Of a DNA stretch of 38,862 nt, positions 6,476 through 17,878 are shown one piece after another. The notes under the pieces were generated by a model. It saw only the letters and a program-made list of their open reading frames with translations. It had not been told where the DNA came from and ran no database searches. Source of the DNA: Actinomycetota bacterium (GTDB lineage: Bacteria > Actinomycetota > Actinomycetes > Streptosporangiales > Streptosporangiaceae); contig DAHWEX010000725.1 in the NCBI GenBank assembly GCA_027326205.1, positions 1-38,862 of the forward strand, written 5' to 3'. Position numbers and translations under genes: made by a program. Position 1 is the first letter of the stretch. Each line of letters opens with the position of its first letter.

Positions 6476-7117
6476 TCAGCTCGTTCCCAGGTAGCGCAGG
6501 ACCGCGAGGACGCGGCGGTGGTCGCGCTCGGCCGGGGCGAGGCCGAGCTTGGTGAAGATGTTGTTGATGTGCTTCTCGACCGCGCCGGCCCCCACGACGA
6601 GGGCGGCGGCGATCGCGGCGTTGGAGCGGCCCTCGGCCATGAGGGCGAGGACCTCGCGTTCCCGCGGGGTGAGGTCGCCGAGCGGGTGGCGGCTGCGGGC
6701 CAGGAGCTGGGCGACGACCTCCGGGTCGAAGGCGCTGCCGCCCGCCGCGACCCGGTTCAGCGCGTCGAGGAACTCGTCCACGTCGGCGACCCGGTCCTTC
6801 AGCAGGTAGCCGACGCCGTGCGGGCGGCCGGCGATGAGCTCGGTGGCATAGCGCTCCTCCACCCACTGGGACAGCACGAGGACGCCGACGTCCGGCCACT
6901 GGTCGCGGACGAGCAGGGCCGCGCGCAGGCCCTCGTCGGTGAACGTCGGCGGCATCCGCACGTCGACGACGCAGGCGTCCGGCCGCGCGTCGCGGACGGC
7001 GCGCAGGAACGCCTCGGCGTCGCCCGCGGCGGCGACGACCTCGTGGCCGGCCTCCTCGAGGAGCAGGGTGAGGCCCTTGCGGAGCAGGACGGAGTCTTCG
7101 GCGATCGCGACGCGCAT
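6476..7117 (-). CDS. NarL/FixJ-type (LuxR HTH) response regulator
   Basis: MRVAIAEDSVLLRKGL receiver; VVDVRMPP; LTPREREVLALMAEGRSNAAIA HTH; alternative upstream ATG at 7153. Confidence 0.88.
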   Translation of the reverse strand: MRVAIAEDSVLLRKGLTLLLEEAGHEVVAAAGDAEAFLRAVRDARPDACVVDVRMPPTFTDEGLRAALLVRDQWPDVGVLVLSQWVEERYATELIAGRPHGVGYLLKDRVADVDEFLDALNRVAAGGSAFDPEVVAQLLARSRHPLGDLTPREREVLALMAEGRSNAAIAAALVVGAGAVEKHINNIFTKLGLAPAERDHRRVLAVLRYLGTS

Positions 7118-7120
7118 GGC

Positions 7121-7133
7121 GGTAACCGTTACC
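7121..7133. promoter_or_regulatory. GGTAACcGTTACC palindrome near the response regulator start
   Basis: Perfect 6-bp arms around one central base; 3 bp upstream of ATG 7117. Confidence 0.35.
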
Positions 7134-7146
7134 ACGGGCTCCCCGC

Positions 7147-8400
7147 TCAGCATGGCAGGATCGCCGAGATGATCGTGGGGCCGCCGGGCGGTGACTCGAC
7201 GGACAGCTCGCCGTCGATCCCGGCGATCCGGTCGGCGAGGCCGCGCAGCCCGGCGCCGTCTGCGTCGGCCCCGCCGATGCCGTCGTCGCTGATCACGACG
7301 TTGAGCGTGCCGGCCGGACCGGGCGCGCCCTCGACGACCACCCGCACGCGGGTGGCCCGGGAGTGCTTGGCGACGTTGGTGAGCGCCTCGGCGACCGTGA
7401 AGTAGGCGACCGCCTCCACCGCGGGCCGCGGCCGCACCGGCACGTCGACGTGTGTCTCGACGTGTACCGGGCAGCGGGCGGCGAGGCCGGAAAGCGCCGC
7501 GTCGAGGCCGCGGTCGGTGAGCACCGGCGGGTGGACGCCGCGCACCAGCTCGCGCAGCTCGACGAGCGCGGCCTTGGCCTCCGCGTGGGCCTGGTCGACC
7601 AGCGCGGCCGCGGCGTCGACGTCGTCGGCGAACTTCGCCTTGGCCCGGCCGAGCTCCATCGCGACCGCGACGAGGCGCTGCTGTGCGCCGTCGTGCAGGT
7701 CGCGCTCGATCCGCCTGCGCTCGGCCTCGGCGGCGTCGACCACGCGCTCCCGGCTGACCTCGAGCTCGGTCACCCGCGCCGCGAGCTCGGCGTCGCGGGG
7801 CGGGGAGATGAGCCAGCGGGTGAACGTGGCGTCGCCGGCCGCCAGGCTCCGGGTGAGCGGCGGGGCGGCGAGCAGCGCGATCAGGCCGACCGCGCAGGAC
7901 AGCCACAGCGGCGTCGTCCCGGCGTACACCGTCCCGCTGACCGACAGGCCGCCGCCGGGGAGCTGGCTCGCGTACAGCGGGATGGTGAGGCCGGTCACGC
8001 CCACGGCCCAGAGCGCGACCGTGAACGTGAACGCGACCACGCTGAACGGCAGGCGCAGCACCGCGTGCAGCACCCGGCCGCGGGTAACGCGGCCGGTGAG
8101 CGTGGCCCGCCTGGGGATGACCAGCGCCCGGTAGCCGCGCTTGCCGTCCGCGGGCCGGCCGGGGATGTCTACCCCGAGCAGCCGGAACCTGGCCCGCTCG
8201 ACGGCGGCGAACCCGTCGGCCAGGCGGGCGGTCACGCCGAGGACCGGCAGGCCGGCCAGGGCGAGCGGCAGCAGCGCCACGCCGACCGCCACCCCGGTGA
8301 CGACGACCGTGAACGAGGCGATCGCCAGCACCAGCCCGGCGACGTGGTGGGTGAAGGCGAGCCAGGTGCGGGCCGACACCAGACCGCGGAGAAGGGACAT
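7147..8400 (-). CDS. Sensor histidine kinase (HisKA_3 / NarX-like) with N-terminal membrane sensor domain
   Basis: 417 aa; ERRRIERDLHDGAQQRLVAVAMELG; HATPase motifs; multiple TM segments. Confidence 0.88.
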   Translation of the reverse strand: MSLLRGLVSARTWLAFTHHVAGLVLAIASFTVVVTGVAVGVALLPLALAGLPVLGVTARLADGFAAVERARFRLLGVDIPGRPADGKRGYRALVIPRRATLTGRVTRGRVLHAVLRLPFSVVAFTFTVALWAVGVTGLTIPLYASQLPGGGLSVSGTVYAGTTPLWLSCAVGLIALLAAPPLTRSLAAGDATFTRWLISPPRDAELAARVTELEVSRERVVDAAEAERRRIERDLHDGAQQRLVAVAMELGRAKAKFADDVDAAAALVDQAHAEAKAALVELRELVRGVHPPVLTDRGLDAALSGLAARCPVHVETHVDVPVRPRPAVEAVAYFTVAEALTNVAKHSRATRVRVVVEGAPGPAGTLNVVISDDGIGGADADGAGLRGLADRIAGIDGELSVESPPGGPTIISAILPC

Positions 8401-8477: not shown

Positions 8478-8582
8478 CGGAATGCACCGGGCCGCACCAT
8501 GTCGGCCCGGTGGCGGACGGACGCAGCATTGCCCCATGGCTACTTCCATGACAGCGCCGCAACGAGACCGGGTGGGGTCACC

Positions 8583-10904
8583 GTGAACACCGCCGATTAC
8601 CGTCCCCATCACAGTTCTCATCACAGCTCTAATCACAGCGCCAGTCACCCAGCGCGGAAAACCGGAGCGGACACGGGCCGCAGGGCTAAGGCCCCCGTTG
8701 TCGAACGGATCGCCGGCTGGTCCGTCAGGCACCGGGTCGCGGTCGTGATCGGCTGGCTGGTCCTGGTCGTCGCCGCGTTCATGGCCGGCCAGAAGCTGGG
8801 CGTCGCGAACACCAACGCCTACGACCCCGGCCAGGCCGGGCAGGCCGAGCGGGTGCTGAACGAGCCCGGCGTCCAGCAGCCCGCCAGCGAGTCCGTGCTC
8901 ATCAAGGCCCGCTCCGCCGCCGGGACCTTCGCCAGCGACCCGCAGCTGCGCCAGGCCGCCCAGCAGGTCGTCACCGCGCTGCGGGGGCTGCCCGGCGCGG
9001 CGGCGGACATCCGCTCCCCGTTGACGACCCCCGGTTTGACCAGCGGCAACGCCGCCCTTGTCACGTTCAACGTCGCGGGTAACCCGGGCAACGACGACCA
9101 GGCGGTCGTGCCCGCGCTGAACGCGGTCGCCGCCGTCCAGGCGAAGTACCCGGGGCTGACCGTCGCCGAGGCCGGGGGCGCCAGCGTGGACCGGGCCACC
9201 GGCGCGCAGGCCAGCCAGGACTTCCGCAAGGCCGAGGTCACGTCGGTGCCGGTGTCGCTCGGGCTGCTGCTGCTCGCGTTCGGTGCGCTGATCGCCGCGG
9301 GCATCCCGCTGCTGCTCGCGGGCACCTGCGTGATCTCCGCGATCTCCCTGCTGGCCGTCCTCAGCCGCCTCGTGCCGATCAGCTCCACGACCTCGTCCAT
9401 CGTGCTGCTCGTCGGGATGGCCGTCGGCATCGACTACTCGCTGTTCTACCTGCGCCGGGTCCGCGAGGAGCGCACCGCGGGCGCCACCACCGCCGAGGCG
9501 CTGCGCACGGCCGCCCGCACCTCCGGCCGGGCCATCGTGGCGGCCGGCCTCACCGTGATCGCGTGCATGGCGGGGCTGTTCGTCACCGGGTTCCAGGTCT
9601 TCTACGGGGTGGCGCTCGGGACCATCGCGGTGGTGGGGATCGCGGTGCTCGGGTCGCTGACCTTCCTGCCCGCGCTGCTCGCCCTGCTCGGCACGGCCAC
9701 CGACCGGGCCCGCGTCCCGTTCCTCGGGCGGCGGCAGGCGACCGCCCGGCCGTCGCGGCTCTGGCGGGCCGTCGTCACCGCCGTCACCCGCCGCCCGCTG
9801 GTGCTCGGCGGGCTCGCCGCCGCGGCGCTGCTGGCGCTCGCCGTGCCGCTGCTCAGCCTGCACCTGGAGGACCCCGGCATCGACTCGCTGCCGGCGAGCG
9901 TGCCCGTCGTCCGGACCCTCGACGCGATCCAGGCCGCCTTCCCCGGCGGCCCGGCGCCCGCCGAGGTCGTCGTCACCGGCAACGGCCTGTCCGGTCCCCA
10001 ATTCGGCCACGCCCTCACCGCGCTGAACGGCGCGGTCGCCGCGAGCCACGGGGCGCTGCGCGAGCCGGTGACCACCGCGGCGCTCGCCGGCGGCAGGGTC
10101 ATGGTCGTCAGCGTTCCGCTGGCGGGCAGCGCCTCGGACGCGACGTCGAACAGCGCCCTGATCACGCTGCGGGACCACGTGCTGCCCGCGACCATCGGGA
10201 AGGTGCCGGGGATCAGCTACGCGGTGGGCGGGCAGACGGCCTCCAGCCTCGACGTCAACCACCAGCTCGGCGTCACCGCGCCGCTGGTGTTCGCGCTGGT
10301 CGCGCTGCTCGCGTTCGTCCTGCTGCTGATCACCTTCCGCTCGCTGGCCATCCCGGCGCTGTCGATCCTGCTCAACCTGCTCTCGGTCGGGGCGGCCTTC
10401 GGGCTGATGACGCTGGTCTTCCAGCACGGCCTCGGGCACGGGCTGCTCGGCTTCACGCCCTACGGCGGCATCGTCCCGTGGCTGCCGCTGTTCATGTTCG
10501 TGCTGCTGTTCGGGCTGTCCATGGACTACCACGTGTTCATCCTCAGCAGGATCGCCGAGTTGCGCGGGCGCGGGGCGAGCCCGCGGGCCGCGGTCATCGA
10601 CGGGATCTCTTCCAGCGCGGGCGTGGTGACCAGCGCGGCGGCCATCATGGTGGCGGTGTTCTCCATCTTCGCCACCCTGGGCGAGATCGAGTTCCAGCTG
10701 TTCGGCGTCACGATGGCGGCGGCGGTGCTGATCGACGCGACGATCGTGCGCGGCGTGCTGCTCCCGGCGGGCCTGTCGCTGCTGGGCGACCGTGCCTGGC
10801 GGGCGCCCGGGCGGCGCGGGCGCGCCCGCGCCGCCGGCCCCGCTGGCGCGGCGCTGGAGCGCCAGGTAGCACCGGGGCCCGTTCGGCCGATGACTCAGCA
10901 CTAG
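8583..10904 (+). CDS. MMPL family transporter
   Basis: GTG start at 8583; about 773 aa; VGMAVGIDYSLFYLRRVREE and LLFGLSMDYHVFILSRIAE MMPL motifs. Confidence 0.88.
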   Translation: MNTADYRPHHSSHHSSNHSASHPARKTGADTGRRAKAPVVERIAGWSVRHRVAVVIGWLVLVVAAFMAGQKLGVANTNAYDPGQAGQAERVLNEPGVQQPASESVLIKARSAAGTFASDPQLRQAAQQVVTALRGLPGAAADIRSPLTTPGLTSGNAALVTFNVAGNPGNDDQAVVPALNAVAAVQAKYPGLTVAEAGGASVDRATGAQASQDFRKAEVTSVPVSLGLLLLAFGALIAAGIPLLLAGTCVISAISLLAVLSRLVPISSTTSSIVLLVGMAVGIDYSLFYLRRVREERTAGATTAEALRTAARTSGRAIVAAGLTVIACMAGLFVTGFQVFYGVALGTIAVVGIAVLGSLTFLPALLALLGTATDRARVPFLGRRQATARPSRLWRAVVTAVTRRPLVLGGLAAAALLALAVPLLSLHLEDPGIDSLPASVPVVRTLDAIQAAFPGGPAPAEVVVTGNGLSGPQFGHALTALNGAVAASHGALREPVTTAALAGGRVMVVSVPLAGSASDATSNSALITLRDHVLPATIGKVPGISYAVGGQTASSLDVNHQLGVTAPLVFALVALLAFVLLLITFRSLAIPALSILLNLLSVGAAFGLMTLVFQHGLGHGLLGFTPYGGIVPWLPLFMFVLLFGLSMDYHVFILSRIAELRGRGASPRAAVIDGISSSAGVVTSAAAIMVAVFSIFATLGEIEFQLFGVTMAAAVLIDATIVRGVLLPAGLSLLGDRAWRAPGRRGRARAAGPAGAALERQVAPGPVRPMTQH

Positions 10905-10950: not shown

Positions 10951-13491
10951 ATGACCAGCGCGGCGAATTGGGACATCGCGAGCGCGGCACCCGAACTCGC
11001 GGTGTCCGGGCTCACGGTGAGGTTTGGCGCGCTCACCGCGCTCGAAGGGGTGGACCTGGCGCTGCGGGCCGGGGAGGTCGTGGCGCTCGCCGGGGAGAAC
11101 GGGGCCGGGAAGACCACCCTGATCAGGTCCATCGCGGGAGACGTGACCCCGGTTTCCGGGGTGATCAGGGTGGGCGGGCAGTCGGTGGCGCCGCTGCCGT
11201 CGGCCGCCGCGCGGCTCGGGGTGCGCGTGGTCTGGCAGGACCTGGCGCTGAGCGACAACCTGGACGTCGCCGCGAACGTGATGCTCGGCAACGAGCGGCG
11301 CAGCCACCTGTTCTCCGACGTGGCGCTGCACCGGGACGCGGCCCGGCTGCTCGACCGGCTCGAGATCCCGCTGCGGGACACGACGCGGCCGGTGCGGCTG
11401 CTGTCCGGCGGGCAGCGCCAGATGGTGGCGGTGGCCCGGGCGATGGCGCACAACCCGCGCCTGCTGCTGCTCGACGAGCCGACCGCGTCGCTCGCCGCGC
11501 GGGAGGCGGCGCTCGTCGAGCGGCTGATCACCCGGCTGCGCGCGCGGGGGACCACGATCTTGCTGTCCGGGCACGACACGGAGCTGATGTTCCGGCTCGC
11601 CGACCGGATCGTCGTGCTGCGGCACGGCCGGGTGGTCACCTCCGTGCTGCCGAGCGAGGTGCACCCGGACGACGTCGTGGCGCTGGTCTCCGGCCAGCCG
11701 GTCGACTCCTCGGCGCGGTTCCAGCTCAGCCGGCTGCACGGCCTGGCCGGGCGGCTGGTCGCCGCCGACCCGTCCTCGTCGCTGTCGCTGATCTTGTCCG
11801 CGCTCGGGGCGGCGCTGGGCAGCGAACGGCTGGCCATTCACCTGCTCGAGGACGGCGGCCTGGTCCGGGCCGCGTCGCTCGGCATGCCGGAGGCGCTGCT
11901 CGACGCCTGGGCGCGGCTGCCGGTCGGGGCGGCGGGCGGCCCCGCCGGGCTCGCCGCCGAGCGGCAGGCGCCGGTCATCGAGGAGAACCTGCGGGCCGGG
12001 GGCGGGTCCTGGGATGTCTTCGGCGACCTGGCCCGGCCGGCCAGGGTGGCCAGTTCCTGGTCGGTGCCGGTGCTCGGACCCGGCGGGCTGCTCGGCGTGA
12101 TCACGGTGTTCCGCGCGATGCCGGGCAGGCCGCGCCGCGATGACCTGGACCTCGCCTCCCTGTACGCCGGGTACGCGGCGAGCGCGATCGAGCGGGACCG
12201 GCTGCTTGAGGAACTGACCGCGCGCAACCGGCTGCTCGAGACGATCAGGGAGATGCTGCAGACCCTGGCCGGCCCGGTGCCGACGCCGGCCGGGCTGCGC
12301 ATCGCGCTGCAGGCGCTGCGCGGCGGGCTCGGCGCGGACGAGGTGGCGCTCGTCGCCGCGCTGCCCGACGGGACCATGCTGAGCCGCGGTTACTCCAGCC
12401 CCGGCGACCACGAGCCGGACCGCCAGCCGCCCGAGGCGACCCTCGCCGTGGCGGCCGCCGTCCTGGACCGGGCCGACCCGGACGGGGTGGCGGTCGCCGG
12501 CCCGGTGAGCCTGGGCACCCGGCGCGCCGGCGGCGACCTCAGCGGCCGGTACCTGTCGGTCTCCTTCGCCCTGCCCGACGGGCGGACCGTGCTGCTGGCC
12601 GGCTGGCAGGACGGCACCCGGTCCGATGACGCGACCGCCCTGCTCGAGGACGCGGCGAACTCGGTGCGGCTCGCGCTCGAGCGCGAGCGGGCGCTGATCG
12701 CCCGGCAGGAGGCGATGGCGCTGCGCCAGTCGCGCGAGCTGCAGCGCACTTTCCTGCGCCGGCTCAGCCACGAGCTGCGAACGCCGCTCACCGCGATCAC
12801 CGGGTACGCCACCAGCCTGCTGCAGCGCGACGTCACCTGGGACGCCGACTCGCAGCAGCGGTTCCTTTCCCGCATCGCGGCCGAGTCGTCGCGGCTGGGG
12901 CGGCTGGTCAACGACCTGCTTGACTTCTCCACGATCGAATCCGGCATCCTGCGGCTGAACAGCGACTGGTGCGACATCCCGCTGGTGCTCGAGGCGGCGG
13001 TCGCCGTCCTGCCCCCGGAGGCGGCGTCCGGCGTGCACGTGGCCGAGATGCCGGGGCTTCCGTCCATCTGGGCCGACCACGACCGCCTGGAGCAGGTGTT
13101 CGTCAACCTCCTCGGCAACGCGCTCGGGCACAACCCGCCGGGGACCCGGGTGGACGTGGCGGCCGCCCTGGACGAGCCGCGCGGGGCGGTGACCGTGCGG
13201 GTCGCCGACGACGGCGAGGGCCTGCCGTCCGAACTGGCCAGGGCCGTCACCGCGGCGGCGGGCCAGCGCGACCCGCGCTGGCACGACGTGCTCGCCGCCG
13301 GCACCATCAAGCCGCGGCGGCGCGGGTCCGGCGCGGGGCTTGGGCTGTCGATCGCCAGCGGGATCGTGGCCGCGCACGGCGGCCGCCTTGAGCTTGAGCC
13401 GGTCGACCGGGGCACGTGCTTCCTCGTTACGCTGCCTATAGAGAAACCCCTCGCTGACGAGAAGCCCGTGACTGGAGTGCAAGCGCGTTGA
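10951..13491 (+). CDS. Hybrid ABC-ATPase / GAF-like / histidine kinase fusion
   Basis: 846 aa; Walker A GENGAGKTT, LLSGGQRQ signature, LLLLDEPTA Walker B, H-loop LLSGHD; then GAF-like regions; H-box LRRLSHELRTPLTAI (His607), N-box NLLGNALGHN, G1 VADDGEGLP, G2 GAGLGLSIA; no TM segment seen. Confidence 0.92.
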   Translation: MTSAANWDIASAAPELAVSGLTVRFGALTALEGVDLALRAGEVVALAGENGAGKTTLIRSIAGDVTPVSGVIRVGGQSVAPLPSAAARLGVRVVWQDLALSDNLDVAANVMLGNERRSHLFSDVALHRDAARLLDRLEIPLRDTTRPVRLLSGGQRQMVAVARAMAHNPRLLLLDEPTASLAAREAALVERLITRLRARGTTILLSGHDTELMFRLADRIVVLRHGRVVTSVLPSEVHPDDVVALVSGQPVDSSARFQLSRLHGLAGRLVAADPSSSLSLILSALGAALGSERLAIHLLEDGGLVRAASLGMPEALLDAWARLPVGAAGGPAGLAAERQAPVIEENLRAGGGSWDVFGDLARPARVASSWSVPVLGPGGLLGVITVFRAMPGRPRRDDLDLASLYAGYAASAIERDRLLEELTARNRLLETIREMLQTLAGPVPTPAGLRIALQALRGGLGADEVALVAALPDGTMLSRGYSSPGDHEPDRQPPEATLAVAAAVLDRADPDGVAVAGPVSLGTRRAGGDLSGRYLSVSFALPDGRTVLLAGWQDGTRSDDATALLEDAANSVRLALERERALIARQEAMALRQSRELQRTFLRRLSHELRTPLTAITGYATSLLQRDVTWDADSQQRFLSRIAAESSRLGRLVNDLLDFSTIESGILRLNSDWCDIPLVLEAAVAVLPPEAASGVHVAEMPGLPSIWADHDRLEQVFVNLLGNALGHNPPGTRVDVAAALDEPRGAVTVRVADDGEGLPSELARAVTAAAGQRDPRWHDVLAAGTIKPRRRGSGAGLGLSIASGIVAAHGGRLELEPVDRGTCFLVTLPIEKPLADEKPVTGVQAR

Positions 13492-14195
13492 CCGAGCCGA
13501 CCATCCCGACCCGCGTGCTCATCGTCGAGGACGACCCGAATATCGTCGACCTGATGCGGTCGAACCTGGCGGTACGCGGCTTCGACACCCTGGTGTCCTT
13601 CGACGGGAGCAAGACGCTGACGCTGCTTGACACCGAGCAGCCGGACATGGTGCTGCTCGACCTGATGCTGCCCGAGGTCGACGGGTTCGAGCTGTGCCGA
13701 CAGATCCGCGAGCGGTCCAACGTGGCGATCATCGTCGTCTCGGCCCGCGGCGGCGAGCGGGACAAGGTCAACGCGCTGAACATGGGCGCGGACGACTACA
13801 TGACCAAGCCGTTCGGCATCGAGGAGCTGCTGGCGCGGATCCTCGCCACGCTGCGGCGGACCCGGCCCGCGGACGCGACCGCCGAGGCGGCGCCGTCGGT
13901 CATCACGATCGGTGACATCGAGCTCGACCTGCCGGCGCAGCAGGTCCGGCTCGCGGGCGAGATCGTGCACCTGACGCCGACCGAGTTCGCGCTGCTGCGG
14001 GAACTCGCGCTGAACCGCGGCAAGCTGCTGTCCCGCGCGCACCTGCTCCGCCGGGTCTGGGGGCGCGGGTACGAGACGGAAACCGAGTACGTCCGCGTGT
14101 ACATCAGGCGGCTGCGGGCCAAACTCGAGCGGCCGGGCGGGGCGCCGCTGATCATCACGCAGCCGCGCGCCGGGTACAGAATCGCCGGGGACTAG
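13488..14195 (+). CDS. OmpR/PhoB-family (KdpE-like) response regulator
   Basis: TTG start overlaps the kinase TGA (TTGA); RVLIVEDDPNIVDLM; LLDLMLPEVDGFELC; winged-helix LTPTEFALLREL, YIRRLRAKLE. Confidence 0.92.
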   Translation: MTEPTIPTRVLIVEDDPNIVDLMRSNLAVRGFDTLVSFDGSKTLTLLDTEQPDMVLLDLMLPEVDGFELCRQIRERSNVAIIVVSARGGERDKVNALNMGADDYMTKPFGIEELLARILATLRRTRPADATAEAAPSVITIGDIELDLPAQQVRLAGEIVHLTPTEFALLRELALNRGKLLSRAHLLRRVWGRGYETETEYVRVYIRRLRAKLERPGGAPLIITQPRAGYRIAGD

Positions 14196-14252: not shown

Positions 14253-14363
14253 TTAACGCGAGGGAAACAGAAACGTCACGAATCAATACCGAAGATTACC
14301 GTGACGCGCCTGTGACGGTCCAAGCGTTAACGCTTTTTTAACGATACCGCGAAGGTGTTAACG
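14253..14363. promoter_or_regulatory. Cluster of four TTAACG direct repeats plus palindrome AAGCGTTAACGCTT (14322-14335)
   Basis: TTAACG at 14253, 14327, 14338 and 14358; the 14327/14338 pair is spaced 11 bp. Confidence 0.5.
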
Positions 14364-14403
14364 ACAACGTTTCTCCGCGTACATCTAGCATTTCGGCCAA
14401 TAG

Positions 14404-14468
14404 CCCGGTCAATTGTGACCGGGTTATACGGATCTGGTCTCGCACGTGCCTCATCTGGCATGCGCGAG
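14404..14468 (+). promoter_or_regulatory. Two tandem stem-loops in the candidate leader of the substrate-binding protein gene
   Basis: CCCGGTCA-attg-TGACCGGG (14404-14423); CTCGCACGTGCC-tcatct-GGCATGCGCGAG (14439-14468, 10/12 paired). Confidence 0.45.
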
Positions 14469-15736
14469 TGAATGAGCGAGGTACACCGTTGTATTCCGTT
14501 TCAGCCCGAGCTGGCCTGACCGCCGCAGCCGCCCTGGCCGCGGTGCTCGTCGCGGCCGGCTGCAGCAGTTCTAGCAGTTCCAGCAGCAGCTCCGCGCCGG
14601 CCACGGCGTCGTCGAGCCCGGCAGGGTCCACGCCGGCCAGCGCGAGCGGCGCGTCGATCTCCGCCGGCAGCCTCACGAACGACTTCTCCGCGATGACGCA
14701 GCTCAAGTCCGTCGCGAGCGCCGGCAAGGGCAACATCACGGTGATCCTCCCGGACACCGTCTCCTCCACCCGGTACGTCGAGTTCGACGCGCCGTACCTG
14801 AAGCAGGCGTTCACCGACGCCGGCCTCTCGTCCTCGGACTTCACCATCGAGAACGCGCTGGGCAGCGACGCGACCCAGTTCAGCATGGCCCAGTCGGCCA
14901 TCACCCAGGGCGCCAGCGTGCTGGTCGTCGACCCGCTCGACTCCGGCGTCGGCGCGCACATCGAGTCCTACGCCAAGCAGCACGGCGTGGCGGTCATCGA
15001 CTACGACCGGCTGACGCTGGGCGGCACGCGCTCCTACTACGTGTCGTTCAACAACGTCAAGGTCGGCCAGGTCATGGGGCAGGGCCTGGTGTCCTGCATC
15101 ACGGCCTGGGGGGTCAAGAGCCCCAGCGTCATCGTGATGAAGGGCGCGCCGACCGACAACAACGCGACGCTGTTCGCGCAGGGCTACGACGGCGTGCTCG
15201 CCCCGTACTTCTCCTCGGGCAAGTACAAGGACGTGTCCAACCCGGCCGGCACCTGGACGCCGTCGGTCGCGCTGTCGGAGTTCCAGCAGCAGTACACCGC
15301 CCACAAGGACATCAACGCCGCGCTGATCCCGAACGACGAGAACGGCGCGCCGATCATCCACTACCTGCAGGGCCAGGGCGTCAAGGCGAAGACCTTCCCG
15401 ACCACCGGGCAGGACGCCACGCTGACCGGCCTGCAGAACATCCTGACCGGTTACCAGTGCGGCACGGTCTACAAGCCGATCTACGAGGAGGCCCAGGCCG
15501 CCGCGGCGCTCGCGGTCTACGTGCGCGCCGGCCAGACGCCGCCCGCCAGCCTGGTGAACGGGTCGACGCAGGACACCACGGCCAAGGTCTCGGTCCCGTC
15601 TGTCCTGCTGAGCCCGGAGTGGGTCACCACGGCGAACATGAACTCGACGATCATCGCGGACAAGTTCGTCTCCGCCTCGCAGCTGTGCGCGGGCTCCTAC
15701 GCGAGCGCCTGCACCGCCGCCGGCATCACTGGGTGA
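14468..15736 (+). CDS. Sugar ABC transporter substrate-binding lipoprotein, XylF-like (start possibly TTG 14489)
   Basis: Signal peptide with lipobox LVAAGC; periplasmic-binding protein type 1 pattern (VLVVDPLDSGVGAHIESYAKQHGVAVIDYDRL). Confidence 0.85.
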   Translation: MNERGTPLYSVSARAGLTAAAALAAVLVAAGCSSSSSSSSSSAPATASSSPAGSTPASASGASISAGSLTNDFSAMTQLKSVASAGKGNITVILPDTVSSTRYVEFDAPYLKQAFTDAGLSSSDFTIENALGSDATQFSMAQSAITQGASVLVVDPLDSGVGAHIESYAKQHGVAVIDYDRLTLGGTRSYYVSFNNVKVGQVMGQGLVSCITAWGVKSPSVIVMKGAPTDNNATLFAQGYDGVLAPYFSSGKYKDVSNPAGTWTPSVALSEFQQQYTAHKDINAALIPNDENGAPIIHYLQGQGVKAKTFPTTGQDATLTGLQNILTGYQCGTVYKPIYEEAQAAAALAVYVRAGQTPPASLVNGSTQDTTAKVSVPSVLLSPEWVTTANMNSTIIADKFVSASQLCAGSYASACTAAGITG

Positions 15737-15805: not shown

Positions 15806-16591
15806 GTGATCGTGAACGACGCTGAGCCGCTGCTGCGGCTGCGTGGCATCGGGAAGAGCTTCGGGCCCGTGCACGCACTGACTGACATCAACCTAGACAT
15901 TCCCGCCGGGCAGGTCACCGCCCTCGTTGGCGACAACGGCGCGGGAAAGTCGACGCTGATCAAGACGATCGCCGGGATCTGGGAACCGACCCGGGGCGAG
16001 ATCCTGTGGCAGGGCAGGCCCGTGCACTTCCGCTCGCCCAAGGAGGCGACCGCGACCGGGATCGCCACCGTGTACCAGGACCTGGCGCTGGCCGACAACC
16101 TGGACATCGTGCAGAAAATGATGCTCGGGCACGAGGCGCTGAAGACCGGGCTGCTTGACGAGATCACGATGGAGAAGGCGGCGAAGGAGACCCTCGCCGA
16201 CCTGCGGGTCACCACGGTCCGCAACATCCGCCAGCCGGTTGGCTCGCTGTCCGGCGGGCAGCGGCAGGCCATCGCCGTGGCCAAGGCCGTCATGCTCGAC
16301 GCCAAGCTCGTGATCATGGACGAGCCGACCGCGGCGCTCGGCGTCTCGCAGACCGCGCTCGTCCTCGACATCATCGAGCAGCTCTCCAGCCGCGGCATCG
16401 CCGTGCTGGTGATCTCGCACAACCTCACCGACGTGTTCCGCGTCGCCGACCGCATCGCCGTCCTGTACCTCGGCCGCATGGTGTCGAACGGGCCGGCGGC
16501 CAACTACGACACCAACTCTGCGGTCCACTGGATGACCACCGGCACCGGCCCCAGCGGCCGCGCCGCGGTCCCGCAGAGCGCGGAGGGCTGA
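15806..16591 (+). CDS. Single-domain sugar ABC transporter ATP-binding protein (XylG/FrcA-like; start may be GTG 15812)
   Basis: Walker A GDNGAGKST, VGSLSGGQRQAIAVAKA, LVIMDEPTAAL, VISHN. Confidence 0.88.
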   Translation: MIVNDAEPLLRLRGIGKSFGPVHALTDINLDIPAGQVTALVGDNGAGKSTLIKTIAGIWEPTRGEILWQGRPVHFRSPKEATATGIATVYQDLALADNLDIVQKMMLGHEALKTGLLDEITMEKAAKETLADLRVTTVRNIRQPVGSLSGGQRQAIAVAKAVMLDAKLVIMDEPTAALGVSQTALVLDIIEQLSSRGIAVLVISHNLTDVFRVADRIAVLYLGRMVSNGPAANYDTNSAVHWMTTGTGPSGRAAVPQSAEG

Positions 16592-16594
16592 GCC

Positions 16595-17878
16595 TTGACG
16601 TCCGTGAACCAAGAGCCGACGCCCACCGAGAGCGAGATCCTGGCGTCCCCGGACGTGTCGGCCGACCTGATGGCCAACTCGTTCGGCGACTACGTGCGGA
16701 TCATGGGCAGGCGCGTCCGCTCCGGCGAGAGCGGCGCGCTGCCGGTCATCGCCGGCCTGGTCGTCATCGTGATCATCTTCCAGGTCAAGAACTCGCTGTT
16801 CCTCTCGGCGGGCAACCTGGTCAACCTGATGGCGCAGTCGGCGTTCATCATCACGCTCGGCATGGCCGAGGTCTTCGTGCTGCTGCTCGGCGACATCGAC
16901 CTCGCCGCCGGCTACACGGCCGCCTGCGGCGCGGTCGTCGCGCTGTGGCTGCTCGCGCTCGGCGACCCCTGGTGGGTCGCGGTCATCGTCGCGCTGGCCG
17001 GCTCCGCCGCCTACGGCGCCCTGCAGGGCATCGTCACCGCGAAACTGGGGCTGCCGTCGTTCGTGGTGACCCTGGCCGGCCAGCTCGGCCTGTCCGGCTT
17101 GCTGCTGTACCTGATCAACGCGACCGGCAGCATCGGCGTCGGCGGCGTGATCAACCTGCACAACAGCATCATCAACGACATCGAGAACGGCGACCTCAGC
17201 CCGACGGCCACCTGGATCGTGATGATCGCCATCGCCGTCCTGTCCGGCCTCGGCATGTTCTACGGCGACTTCCGCCGCCGGTCGGCGGGCCTCGTCGCCC
17301 CGCCGCAGTCGGTCACGCTGCTGAAGATCGGCGGGGTCCTGATCGCCGCCATCGTGGTGGCGGTGATCGCCAACCAGAACCGCGGCCGGCTGATCGTGCT
17401 GGAGGGCATGCCGTGGAGCGTGCTCGTGGTGCTCGCCATCTTGTTCCTGTGGACGATGCTGCTCGGCCGCACGCGGTTCGGCCGGTACATCTACGCGATC
17501 GGCGGGAACGCCGAGGCCGCCCGGCGGGCGGGCATCAGCATCGTGCGAATCCGCACGCTCGCGTTCACCCTGTGCGGCCTGACGGCCGGCCTGACCGGCA
17601 TCATCTACGCGTCCTACCTGGGGTCGATCTCTACCGGAGTGGACGGCGGACAGAACGTGCTGAACGCCGTCGCGGCGGCGGTCATCGGCGGCACCAGCCT
17701 CTTCGGCGGCCGCGGCAAGATGCTGCACGCGGTCATCGGCGGCCTCGTGGTCGGCGTCATCTACAACGGCCTGGAACTGCTCGGCCTGTCGGCCGCGGCC
17801 CAGCTCATGTGGACGGCGCTGGTCCTGCTCGCGGCCGTCATCGTCGACCGCATCACCAGGCGGGGGTCGGCCGGCTAA
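16595..17878 (+). CDS. Sugar ABC transporter permease (XylH/RbsC family)
   Basis: TTG start after GGAGGG; many TM segments; GNAEAARRAGI and GGTSLFGGRG motifs. Confidence 0.88.
   Translation: MTSVNQEPTPTESEILASPDVSADLMANSFGDYVRIMGRRVRSGESGALPVIAGLVVIVIIFQVKNSLFLSAGNLVNLMAQSAFIITLGMAEVFVLLLGDIDLAAGYTAACGAVVALWLLALGDPWWVAVIVALAGSAAYGALQGIVTAKLGLPSFVVTLAGQLGLSGLLLYLINATGSIGVGGVINLHNSIINDIENGDLSPTATWIVMIAIAVLSGLGMFYGDFRRRSAGLVAPPQSVTLLKIGGVLIAAIVVAVIANQNRGRLIVLEGMPWSVLVVLAILFLWTMLLGRTRFGRYIYAIGGNAEAARRAGISIVRIRTLAFTLCGLTAGLTGIIYASYLGSISTGVDGGQNVLNAVAAAVIGGTSLFGGRGKMLHAVIGGLVVGVIYNGLELLGLSAAAQLMWTALVLLAAVIVDRITRRGSAG

Follow-up and report, generated by a model that had tools for sequence, protein, structure and literature searches.

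A soluble histidine kinase bearing an ABC ATPase domain of sugar-importer type, encoded beside a xylose-type importer in Actinomycetota: a candidate transporter-coupled sensor

We analysed a stretch of 38,862 nucleotides from an actinomycetotal genome (hereafter the window), in which 10951-13491 on the forward strand encodes an 846-aa protein in one stop-free frame. An earlier note, made from the sequence alone, had described this frame as uninterrupted and as carrying an apparently complete ABC ATPase, GAF-like regions, and HisKA (His607) and HATPase_c domains with N, G1 and G2 boxes; translation and domain analysis bore out each of these points. A Pfam scan placed four domains above the gathering score: ABC_tran at residues 31-179 (E 2.9e-30; 106 bits against a gathering score of 25), GAF_2 at 273-414 (E 2.5e-11), HisKA at 598-665 (E 3.9e-19) and HATPase_c at 709-831 (E 2.2e-18). 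All four were matched in 17 of the 17 members of alignment A3. The whole ABC ATPase (NBD) domain, delimited with Pfam and NCBIfam, spans residues 12-249 (10984-11697) and contains Walker A GENGAGKTT with Lys54 (11092-11118), Q-loop WQD, the signature LSGGQ, Walker B LLLLDEP and the H-loop His208. It is followed by the first GAF domain (11767-12192), the HisKA/DHp domain (12742-12945) with the phospho-acceptor His607 (12769-12771), and HATPase_c with its N, G1 and G2 boxes (13075-13443). By its HisKA and HATPase_c domains and these motifs the protein is a HisKA-type histidine kinase. A second GAF-like domain, at residues ~445-560 (12283-12630) between long signalling helices, was visible in the secondary structure of the AlphaFold model and had no Pfam match. 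The model (mean pLDDT 73.8; pTM 0.37, at which relative domain placement is unreliable) contained an ABC fold, two GAF-like domains linked by long helices, a helical DHp pair and a catalytic domain; its closest PDB matches were bacteriophytochromes for the GAF and kinase half and importer ATPases for the ABC half.

The fusion is apparently soluble, as the earlier note had proposed: no transmembrane segment was found, the top 19-residue hydropathy being 1.54 compared with 2.65 in the adjoining permease. The ABC half scored best in NCBIfam with Carb2/CUT2 sugar importer ATPases (YtfR, AraG, XylG). No full-length curated sugar-ATPase equivalog was matched, the top score (YtfR, 166 bits against a cut-off of 850) covering the profile's first half only.

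The note had overlooked a likely partner, since permease and binding-protein genes adjoin the kinase gene. The gene order in the window, all on the forward strand, is kinase, OmpR-type regulator and then a xylose-type importer consisting of binding protein, single-domain ATPase and permease. The cognate response regulator (13488-14195; Pfam Response_reg and Trans_reg_C) is of the OmpR/PhoB type, starts at a TTG that overlaps the kinase stop codon by 4 bp, and has its top NCBIfam scores with MtrA and PhoB, both below the cut-off. After a gap of 272 bp come, by domain and profile matches, a XylF-like sugar-binding lipoprotein (Peripla_BP_4; 14468-15736), a separate single-domain sugar importer ATPase (15806-16591) and a sugar importer permease (BPD_transp_2; 16595-17878). 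The solved structure nearest to the lipoprotein is the D-xylose-binding protein 3m9w, and the substrate is probably xylose-like. The ABC domain of the kinase has diverged from the importer's own ATPase, the two being ~40% identical. On the other side, a gene for an MMPL-family membrane protein (8577-10904) ends 47 bp upstream of the kinase gene; an MMPL-family gene was also present upstream at L022 and L024 and absent at more distant loci, and it probably lies outside the kinase-importer system. Further upstream on the reverse strand are a separate HisKA_3-type sensor kinase of the 'Sensor' family (7147-8400) and, adjoining it, a LuxR-type regulator frame within 6476-7906.

To examine the spread of the fusion, we searched for homologues with its GAF region as the query. 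Among near genomes 10 of 60 had a match, as did 17 of 395 at the level of the class and 3 of 397 at that of the phylum; these counts include the window's own genome, and a few of the near-genome matches were fragments or distant. The matches on 18 named contigs came mostly from Streptosporangiaceae and other actinobacterial metagenome-assembled genomes, together with the isolate Trebonia kvetii. A tblastn search of plasmids with the whole protein gave no record at 80% query coverage, with general ABC or kinase matches alone. The Walker A Lys, Q-loop Gln, Walker B Asp-Glu and H-loop His were kept in the homologues compared, as were the H-box His and the N, G1 and G2 boxes in the full-length ones, all of which carry HELRTP around the phospho-acceptor. 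The H-loop reads SGH in the window's kinase and ACH or VSH in relatives, its His being invariant. Between the window and Trebonia kvetii, dN/dS was ~0.27 for the ABC domain, 0.30 for the separate transporter ATPase and 0.25 for the permease. Because of this low dN/dS and a strong codon-position GC bias (GC3 0.96), 10951-13491 is one real gene, selected over its whole length. The assembly of the window's genome is fragmented (830 contigs), which could suggest that the frame joins two proteins, by decay or in a chimeric contig. The same architecture, however, stands on a 1.1-Mb contig of Trebonia kvetii and in many other genomes, and purifying selection extends along the whole length. We therefore rejected an artefact or a decayed fusion, which is barely credible on this evidence, in agreement with the earlier argument from intact catalytic motifs. 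In a tree of ABC domains, one or two changes suffice to separate the kinase-borne domains from the operon ATPases; therefore a single old fusion is possible. The ABC-kinase family is old and conserved in Actinomycetota, and not a chance fusion.

Two main operon types were distinguished. In type 1, the order kinase, regulator, binding protein, ATPase, permease was present in all clusters seen complete and was kept across many genera (the window, L022-L025, L027-L029, L039-L043, L045, L046, L048, L049, L071, L072 and L087; some of these handles stand for one and the same contig, and L026, L044, L047 and L050 run off contig ends). In type 2, the order is kinase, regulator, binding protein, permease; no ATPase gene separates the binding protein from the permease or lies next to either, and the kinase's ABC domain is the sole ATPase left in the operon (L073-L084 of family f21, L086 of f73, and L032 with L031, two contig ends of one genome whose joining is assumed). 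At type-2 loci, including those of f21, the binding-protein gene in most cases overlaps the regulator gene or lies almost directly against it, and the kinases of these ATPase-less operons have the signature LSRGQ or LSRGE instead of LSGGQ. Other arrangements were also observed. Genome G024 holds a type-1 kinase (L026) in addition to the divergent ATPase-less locus over two contig ends (L031, 1-1421; L032, 11563-12607), the kinase of which groups with L086 and the permease with type 1, a pattern suggestive of an exchange of parts. L085 presents a third arrangement, with ~1.7 kb after the regulator (11437-13146), an operator at 11803 and then a complete importer. The window's genome has a second binding protein-ATPase-permease set (G000:C386, locus L002), with an ATPase sister to the type-1 operon ATPases and no kinase seen on the stretch read.

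In f21, the best-sampled family, the type-2 permease was present in 12 of 12 genomes with the kinase and in 0 of 10 without it (n = 22; naive Fisher test 1.5e-6, which ignores kinship). This association bears on the idea that the ABC domain acts by itself as an ATP/ADP (energy) sensor, gating the kinase by dimerisation with ATP and making no contact with a permease. Such a sensor would be in keeping with a soluble protein whose nucleotide-binding motifs are intact, whereas the co-occurrence with the permease, the linkage of importer genes in every cluster seen complete and the retention of an importer-type Q-loop segment all speak for contact with an importer, and we regard a pure energy sensor as quite improbable.

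We identified a predicted operator of the regulator in the window at 14326-14374 (forward strand; repeat match and alignment), with the sequence GTTAAC-N5-TTTAAC followed by GTTAAC and CGTTTC and with half-sites spaced 11, 20 and 11 bp. OmpR/PhoB regulators usually bind direct repeats of 11 bp. The pattern GTTNAY-N5-DTTNAY had a single match in the window, compared with 0.04 expected. The type-1 consensus (GTTAAC-N5-TTTAAC, then GTTAAC and CGTTT(A/C), spaced 11, ~20 and 11 bp) aligned in 16 of 16 loci, where it sits in the gap between regulator and binding protein, ahead of a TANNNT -10 box; in the window the probable -10 box of the importer promoter is TAGCAT (14386-14391), by its conserved position in alignment A5. 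When up to 3 mismatches were allowed, an 18-base version occurred in the genome only at the window site and at one weak match to the operator core (3 mismatches; G000:C254:1437-1454), which may be a second target of the regulator. At L027:8266-8313, L029:8004-8051 and L041:10492-10539 the operator also matches on the opposite strand, as a near-palindromic box.

The initial operator pattern missed the type-2 operons; alignment and a looser pattern placed the box upstream of the neighbouring importer. Most f21 loci adjoin a ROK repressor and a complete importer, and a repeat GTTTAC-N5-GTTTAT, part of a block of almost invariant sequence, stands upstream of the binding protein of that importer in 10 of the 10 loci that have one in range. 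All 9 kinase-bearing g79 genomes had the long form of this repeat, compared with 0 of 10 family genomes without the kinase; it was absent from the three kinase-bearing g106 genomes, and at L077, in one of these three, a variant box stands at the same place. Near the type-2 loci L075, L086, L031 and L032 no operator was found, and L078 had only a doubtful match. From the positions in type 1 and f21, the target, where visible, is therefore a complete sugar importer.

The permeases differ with the presence of an operon ATPase. The presumed NBD-facing (coupling) loop of the window's permease, its role assigned from the family, is GRYIYAIGGNAEAARRAGI (17480-17536, forward strand). In ATPase-paired permeases this loop reads YA(I/V)GG(N/S)xEAARR (25/25), whereas in ATPase-less operons the second Gly is replaced by Ser: GSN or GSD was present in 13 of the 13 readable permeases, the 14th (L078) being unreadable, compared with 0 of 25 ATPase-paired ones. 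The permease tree strongly supports two separate positions for the ATPase-less members (L031 within the type-1 clade, and L086 with f21), and the loop change therefore appears to have occurred twice; the change from GGN may reflect lineage history plus one further event. The AlphaFold model of the permease (pLDDT 63) was too weak for a useful fold search. The Q-loop segment of the kinase ABC domain was 69-76% identical to that of the ATPase of the same operon or its neighbour, compared with ~43% elsewhere. Because same-subfamily ATPases from kinase-less operons reached 50-59% in a control, this similarity is partly a subfamily trait; we down-weighted it as proof of a shared permease and use it as supporting evidence.

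It is also conceivable that the GAF domains sense a cytoplasmic ligand, the ABC domain serving as a tether or stabiliser and the type-2 permeases using an ATPase shared with a neighbouring or other importer. GAF domains usually bind small molecules and could supply the signal, another sugar ATPase lies near most f21 loci, and sugar ATPases are shared between importers in other bacteria; the type-2 permeases might thus borrow the ATPase of the neighbouring importer. Against this, the ABC catalytic residues would have been kept without need, L075, L078, L086 and L031 have no other ATPase gene beside the permease, and the permease loop alters with loss of the operon's own ATPase. We consider ligand sensing by the GAF domains unlikely, albeit the least unlikely of the alternatives discussed.

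Because of the gene order, the operator, the loss of the ATPase with binding protein and permease kept, and the loop change, we tie the ABC half to the importer. Our preferred reading, to which we give a probability of roughly two in three, is that the kinase docks on the permease, either as its ATPase or in place of it, reads the state of the importer and drives importer expression. The earlier proposal that a transporter-type ATPase domain is the sensory input of the kinase is supported to this extent as a sequence-based prediction, and fits the family-wide linkage to importers, the operator before the importer and the operons in which the kinase's ABC domain is the sole ATPase. We infer a complex in which a soluble histidine kinase, with a sugar-importer ATPase (NBD) as its input module and dimerised via DHp, would bring a pair of ABC domains beneath the permease dimer, in the usual position of the importer's ATPase. 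A sugar-loaded binding protein engaging the permease would alter the conformation of the NBD or its ATP turnover, which presumes that the domain hydrolyses ATP, and the GAF domains and long helices would relay the change to the kinase core, so that the signal would run from importer to kinase. The kinase would then phosphorylate the co-encoded OmpR-type regulator, which would bind the 11-bp direct repeats and turn on the importer genes. In type 1, uptake could still be driven by the separate ATPase, with the kinase as its competitor or partner. In type 2, binding protein, permease and kinase, the last being the sole ATPase encoded with the permease, would form a dedicated receptor, which at most f21 loci would control the complete importer next door. 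More tentatively, and with the odds somewhat against it, the kinase of ATPase-less operons may be the importer's only motor subunit, such that transport cycles, and not ligand binding to a sensor domain, constitute the signal.

If the proposed coupling is correct, control of a kinase by a transporter's ATP cycle could be tested with one protein, and the family would represent a modular route for turning ABC importers into gene switches for chosen nutrients. Transporters often serve as bacterial sensors, and what connects them to a kinase is in most cases another protein or a contact in the membrane that is difficult to isolate. The open-access literature, as far as it was covered, gave no description of an ABC-ATPase/histidine-kinase fusion. 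Transporters go unmentioned in a 2015 survey of kinase domain organisations, and the architecture is presumably already listed, without remark, in public genome annotations.

Several known systems resemble parts of this arrangement. Carb2/CUT2 ATPases (RbsA, XylG, YtfR and single-domain forms) share the sequence class, Q-loop segment and operon partners of the ABC half but end after one or two ABC domains, whereas the fusion continues as GAF-GAF-HisKA-HATPase_c. KdpD likewise joins a cytoplasmic N-terminal nucleotide-related module to a histidine kinase; it has transmembrane helices and KdpD/Usp domains and no ABC_tran, whereas the fusion has neither KdpD/Usp domains (Pfam) nor transmembrane helices. 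In Pst-PhoU-PhoR, the state of an ABC importer is read by a histidine kinase with an OmpR/PhoB-type regulator, but PstB and PhoR are separate, PhoU bridges them and PhoR is membrane-bound. Bce modules (BceAB-BceS) also couple an ABC transporter complex and a histidine kinase, which signal jointly, nucleotide binding priming the complex (PMC10314905). However, BceS is a membrane kinase that touches the permease via transmembrane helices, with the NBD (BceA) as a separate protein, whereas the fusion kinase lacks a transmembrane segment, bears the NBD itself and is partnered with a sugar importer and its binding protein. The SLC5/STAC histidine kinases CbrA, CrbS and RpuS similarly have a transport module covalently fused to a kinase controlling nutrient uptake genes, and an imperfect direct repeat before the transporter operon is documented for RpuR (PMC9100948); there a whole membrane symporter is fused, here an ABC ATPase, and the fusion has no Pfam match to the SLC5 symporter or the STAC domain. 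In XylFII-LytS a xylose-type binding protein feeds a two-component system (PMC9769921) by touching the periplasmic domain of a membrane kinase, a part that the fusion kinase lacks. DctA-DcuS is another transporter-linked kinase system, cited in PMC11109136. Transporter-linked kinases are established, and the Bce, DctA-DcuS, SLC5/STAC and XylFII-LytS kinases all lack an ABC ATPase domain, whereas here the ATPase of an importer is seemingly fused straight to a soluble kinase.
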